Shown here piece by piece: positions 3,195 to 9,916 of a DNA stretch of 20,119 bases (positions within the stretch are counted from its first letter, which is position 1; every line of letters begins with the position of its first letter). The stretch spans positions 1-20,119 of IMG/VR virus record IMGVR_UViG_3300041405_000058; one strand, written 5' to 3'. The DNA is from a virus. Made by a program: the position numbers and the translations under genes. The notes beneath the pieces were generated by a model. It was given only the letters and a program-made list of their open reading frames with translations, did not search any database and was not told the DNA's origin.

Positions 3195-3563
3195 TTAATA
3201 GCCTTCGTTCAGCAGTTCACTTAATGCACGTGCTTGAGATACAGCTGTATTAGCGAATACATCACTCAAGTAGTAATCTTTGTCTACAGCTAGCGTAGCG
3301 AGTTCTCTCATGAGTTCTGGGTTAGCCTTAGCCCATGTTGCCCAGAAACCTTTATAGTCCTCATACGTCGGATTAAAGCCTTCTAGGGGTGGTTTCCCCT
3401 TAGCGTCCTTCCAGTTGTTTGTAAACTGTCGATAACCCTTGCAATCTAACTGCCAAGCTTCCTCAATAGTGCGCCCATCCGGTAGTCGTGCAAACAAAGC
3501 ACTGAATCGTTTGTCGCCAACGGAGGAACATTCGTATCCTCCGCGACGCTTCCACCGGTACAT
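3195..3563 (-). CDS. Small conserved phage protein coupled to the polymerase gene
   Basis: 122 aa. Its ATG overlaps the polymerase stop codon in the sequence TAATG, so translation is probably coupled. The N-terminal half carries the pattern RRGGYECSSVGDKRFSA, then ARLPDGRTIEEAWQLD, then KGYR, then GKPPLEG. I recognise this as a small protein of unknown function found in many large phages and some others, but I cannot give it a verified family name. The C-terminal part (FWATWAKANPELMRELATLA and onward) is helical. There is no signal peptide or membrane segment, and it is not a homing endonuclease. Coupling to a DNA polymerase part suggests a role in nucleic-acid metabolism; that is inference. 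Confidence 0.8.
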   Translation of the reverse strand: MYRWKRRGGYECSSVGDKRFSALFARLPDGRTIEEAWQLDCKGYRQFTNNWKDAKGKPPLEGFNPTYEDYKGFWATWAKANPELMRELATLAVDKDYYLSDVFANTAVSQARALSELLNEGY

Positions 3564-5668
3564 TACTTTGGGTTAGCTTTAGCCTTCAGATAACCGGCCA
3601 ATACTTCATCCAACTTAGGACCGCGCATCACTTTCTGAGCGATCTCCAGTACGTTCGTTCGGCAACCTGTGAGGTTAACGCCAAGTTCACGTTTATGGTA
3701 ATCACTCACCCCTTGTACAGCCGATGTTTCCATTACCGTAGTTTCACGAGCAATGTTCAGAATCTGACTAACGTTAGGATAAGTCGAAACAATGTCCAAG
3801 TCAGCTACGTGTGTCCAGATCAACGATCGGTAGTTAGGGAGATCCTTAACGCACTTAATACCGTTAGGACCTGCCATGTAAGTCGGTAGTGTTACAATCC
3901 AACCGTCATGCCCCACTACATACTGGTCAAGGTCATGAACCATCTGATCCGAACTGGTACCAATCACGCAAGGTTCAGGTCGATTCAGATACCAGAAGTG
4001 CATATCGTCAACGAGTCGCTTCGGGTTAGAGTTAAAGTTCTTATAGTCCGAGCTTTTAGAGAACAGTGTAATCGAGCTGGCCAAGTCATTGATGCGTTCA
4101 TCCAGTTGTTCTAGTCGAATGCTGTCGATGATGTTGTAAAGCCCGTATCGCACTTTGTGGTGCTTCTGCATCTCAATGTGCCATTCGATCCCATTGAGGT
4201 GGTCGGTTTCTTTGAACTTCAACTTACCAAAGTTAAGCTTCATGTTAACCATAAAGCCTGGATGTACGTTAACACCCCACACCAATTCGTCGACGCTTTC
4301 CCAGATCGGTTCACGATGCTCAACTTCACGAGATACTGTGTCTTCTTCGAAGTCGTAGATAAAGCTTACGGTATCATCATCATCGAAGTCCGCAGGAACG
4401 TCATCATCTTCAGACTCTTCCTCCTCGGCATCTTCTTCATCTTCAACCTCTAGTGCTTCAGTTACGGTCTCATAGGTCACCTTGTCATTGGCTGGGTTAG
4501 ACACGCTCCAATATGGATGACTACCACTACGGTCATTGATCGCCTTATTACAAGTCTTCATGAACGCAATAAAATCTTCCTCTGTTTTAACCTCAGCTTC
4601 TTCATCAACCGAGAGTTCTTTACGAAGAATGGCATCCAAGGCATAACTAGGTTCTTTACCCTTAGCGAGTCGAGTTACCCGATAGGTAGACATCGAGTCA
4701 ATGCACTGGAACGAAGCTGGTGCTGTAACCCAATGCCACTGATCCTCAGGACCCTTAGACTTAGTCACACCACTGGCCGTAGTGTTCATCGCTTGGTCTT
4801 GACGATAATGGAACTTACGATACTGTGGCGGTACCTTAGGATCACTGAATACATCAGCTGGATTAATCCCGTAATGCTCCAAGCACTTCAAGATTCGACT
4901 CATGTCGAAGTCCATGTTCCAGAAAGCAAAGAAGTCAGGCTTCCATTCATGGAGACGGCGCATACACTGAATAACAATATCAGCTGGAGTATTAACTACT
5001 TCAATCTCAACCTTCAGGTTACGAGCTTTCTTCAGAGTAACCAGTTCAGGAATACGTTCGAGTTCATCTAACGTTTCTTGTACCGGGTTCTCAAGGTCAC
5101 TTACCCAATGTTTCAAATAAGCAAGGTATACGTTCTCTTTATACGTAACGGACATACAGATGATCTGTCCATCGTTCTCAGATTCGTATACGTTTGTTTC
5201 GATGTCACCGCCAGCTACCGAGTTACGACTAATCAATCCCGGATAAGCTTCACGGTAATCATTCTTCAGGTAACATACAGAGCTAACGTCAGCACCATAC
5301 AAGTAAGGACTACGCGCGAGTTGTCTCAGTCTAGGGTTAGGTCCTTGACTAAAGTCATTCAATGCTCGAGCTACAGCTCTAGGCAACTTAGCTTGCGTAG
5401 TCTTAAACTGCTTAAGCTTTGACTTAAGCATGTAGTCTTTCTTTTCCTTGTATGGCCTTAAGTGTTCTGGTTTCTGTACAGCAGGGTCAATCCAAAATGG
5501 ACGTTCATAGTTCTCTACGATCTTTACTCGAGGTATACGTCGCTTGTCCTTTAGATGGACAATCTCCTTAACTACGTGAATATCGTTATTACCACCAATC
5601 TCTGTAACGTGTGTAATGTGTTTGGCTTCAATGCCTACCACATCGTCCTTACTGAATTGCTCGGTCAT
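3563..5668 (-). CDS. Family B DNA polymerase, exonuclease and partial palm (C-terminus missing)
   Basis: 701 aa, start ATG at 5668 with GAGG 7 nt upstream. Motifs in order: Exo I D155-I-E157 in AGGDIETN; Exo II N251-MDF-D255 in FWNMDFDMSRIL; Exo III Y511-NII-D515; polymerase motif A D625-IVSTYP. These define the 3'-5' proofreading exonuclease and the start of the palm of a family B replicative polymerase. The protein ends about 70 residues after motif A, so motif B (KxxxNSxYG in the fingers) and motif C (DTD) are absent. It cannot polymerise alone unless the rest is supplied by another polypeptide. A highly acidic stretch (about residues 405-450) sits between Exo II and Exo III. The first 150 residues are basic and poorly conserved. 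No late-type TATG motif lies upstream, suggesting early or middle expression. Assignment to family B is confident; the split-gene explanation is inference. Confidence 0.85.
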   Translation of the reverse strand: MTEQFSKDDVVGIEAKHITHVTEIGGNNDIHVVKEIVHLKDKRRIPRVKIVENYERPFWIDPAVQKPEHLRPYKEKKDYMLKSKLKQFKTTQAKLPRAVARALNDFSQGPNPRLRQLARSPYLYGADVSSVCYLKNDYREAYPGLISRNSVAGGDIETNVYESENDGQIICMSVTYKENVYLAYLKHWVSDLENPVQETLDELERIPELVTLKKARNLKVEIEVVNTPADIVIQCMRRLHEWKPDFFAFWNMDFDMSRILKCLEHYGINPADVFSDPKVPPQYRKFHYRQDQAMNTTASGVTKSKGPEDQWHWVTAPASFQCIDSMSTYRVTRLAKGKEPSYALDAILRKELSVDEEAEVKTEEDFIAFMKTCNKAINDRSGSHPYWSVSNPANDKVTYETVTEALEVEDEEDAEEEESEDDDVPADFDDDDTVSFIYDFEEDTVSREVEHREPIWESVDELVWGVNVHPGFMVNMKLNFGKLKFKETDHLNGIEWHIEMQKHHKVRYGLYNIIDSIRLEQLDERINDLASSITLFSKSSDYKNFNSNPKRLVDDMHFWYLNRPEPCVIGTSSDQMVHDLDQYVVGHDGWIVTLPTYMAGPNGIKCVKDLPNYRSLIWTHVADLDIVSTYPNVSQILNIARETTVMETSAVQGVSDYHKRELGVNLTGCRTNVLEIAQKVMRGPKLDEVLAGYLKAKANPK

Positions 5669-9193: not shown

Positions 9194-9916
9194 TTACGTT
9201 ACCGAAATGATTTCTAGCACTGGACGCCAATTAATTCCGTCGTTTGCTTTCTGGCCATGGCTACGGTATCCGTAATTAGAGTTACCGCCAGCAGCTACGA
9301 AATATTCAGTATAAGTAGTTCGCGATTCCATACCCATGGAAAGGAGTGAGTCAATATTGGCTGTACCGATGTTATCCCAAACCACCGGGTTACCAACTGT
9401 AGGAAGGCATCGTTCGAACATCGTCCATTCAGTATTAGTACCAATAGCGATACTGGTATCTGGAGCTGGATCAACGTTCGCTACTTGCGGTAATCTAACT
9501 TTGAAGGTGTACGTCTTACCATCACCTGCAACTTTAGTAAGTGTTCGTAACTGATTCACTGGAGTACCAACTGGATATTTACCATTATCGTTAGTACCAT
9601 ACACCATACCAGCCGCGTAGATATCGGCCCAAGCAATATTAGTAATCCTAAATGGACGTTTGGCGATATAGAAAATCTTCCCAGCTTTGATAAATTTAAG
9701 CCAGCCATTCTGGTCAGTGTTGGCCGCTGTATTAGGGGTGCCTGTAGTCATCGGCCCAGCCGCTGCAACTTCATCCGGGGTAAACAGCTGAGCTAAAGTA
9801 GTGATACCAAAATAACCTTCATCGATAGTACCGGCCTTAAGAGTCGTTGGACCAGGACCACTATCTGGAACAGTCGGCGTGACCTTAACACTCACGCACA
9901 TGAGATGCTCTAGCAT
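9194..9916 (-). CDS. Single-module tail-fibre-like protein, paralogue of the 978-2384 gene
   Basis: 240 aa, ATG at 9916 with GGAAA 6 nt upstream. The N-terminus MLEHLMCVSV resembles MIEHLLAF and MLEALFF of the other two fibre genes. A short linker ending DSGPGPT (residues 18-24) leads into one fibre module: EGYFGITTLAQLF, NGWLKFI..KIFYIAKRPFRI, WADIYAAGMVYGTNDNG, PVNQLRT, DGKTYTFKVRL, TEWTMFER, and a terminal WRPVLEIISVT. This matches the second module of the 468-aa protein very well. No catalytic motif or membrane segment is seen. It is monocistronic, bounded by hairpins on both sides, with TATGTTAAT upstream. Probable role: tail-tip or fibre component for surface recognition, possibly an alternative adhesin; this is inferred from the class. 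Confidence 0.75.
   Translation of the reverse strand: MLEHLMCVSVKVTPTVPDSGPGPTTLKAGTIDEGYFGITTLAQLFTPDEVAAAGPMTTGTPNTAANTDQNGWLKFIKAGKIFYIAKRPFRITNIAWADIYAAGMVYGTNDNGKYPVGTPVNQLRTLTKVAGDGKTYTFKVRLPQVANVDPAPDTSIAIGTNTEWTMFERCLPTVGNPVVWDNIGTANIDSLLSMGMESRTTYTEYFVAAGGNSNYGYRSHGQKANDGINWRPVLEIISVT

Follow-up and report, generated by a model that had tools for sequence, protein, structure and literature searches.

The DNA polymerase of phage phiKZ was recognised as a split-subunit enzyme ten years after its genome (PMC5105663). The first phage in which such an enzyme was identified is OBP, and in SPN3US it is formed by gp18 and gp44 (PMC5694885). The phiKZ-type split has been documented for more than ten years, the original account being that of Cornelissen et al. 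2012, and the arrangement is general in phiKZ-related phages. PMC5105663 and PMC5694885 describe the split and do not state its site relative to the polymerase motifs. The phiKZ polymerases form a divergent cluster (PMC7544198). In an antisense knockdown screen both phiKZ genes, 050 and 082, gave phenotypes, and phiKZ 049 was termed an SH3-domain interactor of the polymerase (PMC12571901). A family B polymerase from two genes is likewise found in Methanothermobacter thermautotrophicus (Kelman et al. 1999), an archaeal case that appears to be an unrelated split event. In a PA5oct-like Pseudomonas jumbo phage polymerase B also lies in two ORFs, but it is interrupted by an intein with an HNH endonuclease and the phage carries no nucleus genes; no intein-like extension was noticed on inspection of the ends of the N- and C-halves described here.

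The DNA analysed here (the window, with its full length of 20,119 bases) is a virus fragment from IMG/VR in which virion structural genes predominate. Its gene order is that of 201phi2-1 gp143-gp155 and of phiKZ gp82-gp92, and the fragment is therefore a piece of a phiKZ/201phi2-1-like jumbo phage; the source phage is close to 201phi2-1 and probably nucleus-forming. The window contains a truncated-looking family B polymerase gene (Table 1), which is very likely the N-terminal subunit of a two-gene polymerase, completed to a proofreading replicative enzyme by a PF20286 partner encoded elsewhere. It would thus represent one half of a conserved two-gene replicase, and neither decay nor error. The family and the two-gene layout are the same as in phiKZ (gp82 and gp50), 201phi2-1 (gp144 and gp83), SPN3US (gp18 and gp44) and OBP, from which the window differs in sequence divergence only. 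The acidic linker of about 50 residues, which begins with EVEDEEDAEEEESEDDDVPADFDDDD, is present in the 201phi2-1-like N-subunits and missing in phiKZ and in the more distant homologs.

Table 1. Positions of the N-subunit gene, its motifs and the adjoining small gene in the window.
Feature	Position	Strand	Remarks
N-terminal subunit, split family B DNA polymerase (very likely)	3563..5668	-	701 aa; phiKZ gp82 / 201phi2-1 gp144 ortholog
Domain content of the 3563..5668 product		-	N-terminal domain; 3'-5' exonuclease; motif A on the first strand of the palm
Exo I, D155-I-E157	5198..5206	-	invariant in homolog alignment
Exo II, N251..D255	4904..4918	-	invariant in homolog alignment
Acidic linker separating Exo II from Exo III, ~residues 409-460	4289..4444	-	from homolog alignment
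Exo III, Y511..D515	4124..4138	-	invariant in homolog alignment
Motif A, D625-IVSTYP, with the first of the catalytic aspartates in the polymerase site	3776..3796	-	lines up with motif A of T4
Small gene, 122 aa, PHROG 9995	3195..3563	-	overlaps polymerase stop (TAATG); adjoins the N-subunit in Pseudomonas jumbo phages

The positions of the three exonuclease motifs and of motif A had been given in a sequence-only reading of this DNA, and all were reproduced exactly in the 701-aa protein. The ORF matches PHROG 3011 'DNA polymerase' with E=1.1e-228 (residues 4-699 on profile positions 3-570 of 576), and among its best matches are PhiPA3 gp085, phiKZ gp82 and 201phi2-1 gp144, the last being 76% identical along the entire N-half. 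The residues of Exo I, Exo II, Exo III and motif A are invariant in 15 homologs that are 40-87% identical to the window protein, and the N-half profile aligns with T4-type polymerases from Exo III through motif A (E=3.4e-5), so the motif matches are not due to chance. Each of the 21 N-subunits read keeps the pattern D-x-x-S-T-Y-P, in which T replaces the L of the family B consensus DxxSLYP. T4 and RB69 gp43 have Exo I-III and motif A in the same order and are similar to the window ORF in profile and fold; however, they are single chains of ~900 residues, whereas the polymerase of the window is divided behind motif A, with an N-half too divergent to be detected by PF00136.

The nearest homolog is a metagenomic sequence (L005), 88% identical at the protein level. 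Between it and the window ORF dN is 0.10 and dS 1.24, giving a dN/dS ratio of 0.08; the N-half gene is under strong purifying selection. In the homologs read the stop codon falls 77-96 residues past motif A, following a conserved tail, GVNLTG..N..EI, and the early stop is thus ancestral and not an accident. That the ORF is a polymerase gene in decay or cut short, as might be supposed from a frame that stops shortly past motif A with no motif B or C after it, is highly improbable in view of this shared stop and tail, of the selection acting on the gene, and of the relatives, which have no intact single-chain copy. The preference for a functional split over decay expressed in the sequence-only reading is supported by the same observations, the orthologs having the same architecture.

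The N-half ORF itself contains neither motif B nor motif C. In a six-frame scan of the whole window neither motif occurs in any frame, while motif A is found once, and the PF00136 and PF20286 models gave zero matches to the window; this agrees with the earlier statement that the frame ends about 70 residues past motif A with neither motif nearby. In the relatives both motifs occur in a separate protein. A PF00136 search of 201phi2-1 pointed to one place, within gp83, which is annotated as DNA polymerase and resembles EL gp21 as well as phiKZ gp50. This type of C-half falls in Pfam PF20286 'Divergent Family B DNA polymerase'; in its sequence KINNNSYSG forms motif B and SDTDS motif C, and motif A is absent. 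The PF20286 model, with known relatives as the positive control, was silent in the control genomes and found one gene apiece in all five relatives searched (phiKZ, 201phi2-1, EL, PBS1 and a 325-kb metagenomic relative). The second part of the polymerase, which the sequence-only reading preferred to place elsewhere in the genome, is therefore a separate conserved gene in the relatives, absent from the 20 kb fragment; judging from them, the source genome would carry its C-half gene beyond the fragment.

Of 50,697 phage records, 275 gave the N-half and 281 the C-half, with host genera in common and with equal counts of the two in the commonest shared genera. The C-half total takes in 7 Bacillus records; the Bacillus N-half is too divergent for tblastn, and a profile recovers it in both of the two Bacillus records searched. 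The two genes are roughly 30-45 kb apart where the distance was measured (35-45 kb in five IMG/VR contigs holding both), and likewise tens of kb apart in the other records listed for both halves. In the sample of the nearest homolog, the N-half (L005) and the C-half (L033) are on two different contigs. No fused N+C polymerase gene was seen in the subset of records inspected. The family A and family C (Pol III alpha) models gave no match in phiKZ, 201phi2-1, EL or the 325-kb metagenomic relative, and no full-length polymerase of family B, A or C was found in the related genomes searched, so that the split is not contradicted by a complete enzyme alongside it.

A longer continuous gene, masked in the window by a sequencing error or an intron, is conceivable in principle, as group I introns do interrupt the N-subunit gene in PhiPA3, HPP-Temi and BpSp. 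The window, however, gave no intron match and holds motifs B and C in no frame, and in the relatives the C-half gene is tens of kb away; we give this explanation, which the relatives refute, almost no weight.

The site of the break is best seen in the Bacillus branch, which is closest in sequence to ordinary family B polymerases. In sequence and profile searches against solved structures the N- and C-halves of the window branch gave nothing usable, whereas the Bacillus branch matched clearly. The PBS1 N-half has a textbook motif A, DFDLSSLYPSII, near its C-terminal end, and matches RB69 gp43 residues 106-434 (E=9e-14), the match ending just past motif A. It covers positions 45-91 of PF00136, and the PBS1 C-half covers positions 103-211 (E=7e-17) and also matches an archaeal polymerase in the region of its fingers and motif B. 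Since the two PBS1 halves match complementary stretches of PF00136, the junction is placed, by sequence comparison, between motif A and the fingers, the halves tiling one polymerase. The C-half begins at positions 84-106 of PF00136, i.e., past motif A. The break had been assigned earlier to the fingers region; the PBS1 half-matches bear this out and locate it at the start of the fingers. Given a break after motif A, the two sets of metal-binding aspartates are therefore carried by different proteins, which bears on the assembly of the replication machinery in nucleus-forming phages.

The fold predicted for the N-half is confident over its N-terminal and exonuclease domains, and with a best E=7e-10 it matches family B polymerases from E. 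coli, RB69, yeast and archaea. The fold match of the C-half on its own is weak (best E=7e-3, to RB69 gp43), and the comparison of the C-half profile with T4-type polymerases was not significant. In the single-chain models pLDDT is below 50 for residues 573-676 of the N-half, around motif A, and for residues 165-215 and 395-419 of the C-half, around motifs B and C. Such low values would suit a palm that folds only once both chains are together, but they may also be caused by the shallow alignments (15 and 16 sequences).

We infer that the two chains associate physically and share an active site. From the N-half would come the exonuclease for proofreading, the N-terminal domain and the first strand of the palm, which bears the motif A aspartate; the second protein, an ortholog of phiKZ gp50 (PF20286), would supply the fingers, motif B, the motif C aspartates and the thumb; their association would complete one palm across both chains and yield a proofreading replicase. 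The active site is probably composite: the exonuclease chain would contribute the motif A aspartate and the divergent polymerase chain those of motif C, and neither chain would then synthesise DNA alone. Alternatively, the N-half could be a mere proofreading exonuclease beside a self-sufficient divergent polymerase, its motif A-like sequence being idle in DNA synthesis. We consider this unlikely: the C-half has no motif A of its own and starts past the corresponding PF00136 positions, the N-halves of the 15 homologs all share the same motif A residues, the motif is well formed in PBS1, and group I introns in two relatives are located exactly at the N-half motif A. Homing introns often occupy conserved catalytic sites. 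The idle-motif reading agrees with the description of a group 1 polymerase that has no fused exonuclease, the exonuclease protein being encoded elsewhere (PMC7824862). The new element beside that account is that the exonuclease chain, as judged from its residues, bears motif A as well. The composite site, if true, would correct PMC7824862, in which the divergent polymerase is self-sufficient and the exonuclease stands alone. Assembly of the enzyme could then be under control, for example through import of each chain into the phage nucleus on its own.

The TAATG coupling of the polymerase stop to the small downstream gene, pointed out earlier, was confirmed. This gene was considered as the missing C-half and ruled out, since its 122-aa product is free of polymerase motifs and its relatives include proteins of ~73-kb Achromobacter and Delftia phages. 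Sphingomonas phage PAU has a further relative, and weak matches come from Rhizobium and Bacillus SP-15 phages; because of their occurrence in these other phages, the small gene is not specific to the split polymerase. Just 3' of it, at ~3184-3163, there is a perfect 10-bp hairpin, GTCCTCTCCC-TA-GGGAGAGGAC. Of the terminator proposed at this place the hairpin itself holds up; its T tail is weak, and the site is absent from the list of the terminator scan.

Group I introns are located exactly at motif A of the N-subunit gene in HPP-Temi (L091:4695-6363) and PhiPA3 (L009:5803-6108). In HPP-Temi exon 1 ends with ...VADLD and the next exon restarts with IVSTYP, with an HNH endonuclease ORF between them; the PhiPA3 gene restarts at the same point. 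The Goslar ORF (L092:4488) likewise stops at VAD, with a NUMOD1/HNH gene after it, but Rfam gave no intron there. In Bacillus phage BpSp a group I intron (L087:1839-2141, 87.5 bits) cuts the N-subunit gene between Exo II and Exo III, and the ORFs that it separates, gp207 and gp206, are annotated as two genes. A three-piece polymerase in BpSp, with the N-half in two ORFs, was ruled out by this intron.

Elsewhere in the window, the genes at 978-2384 and 9194-9916 encode paralogous virion structural proteins, with 38% identity over 236 residues. The 9194-9916 gene sits between the orthologs of gp148 and gp149, which adjoin each other in 201phi2-1; this copy is either a lineage-specific insertion or a gene lost from 201phi2-1.
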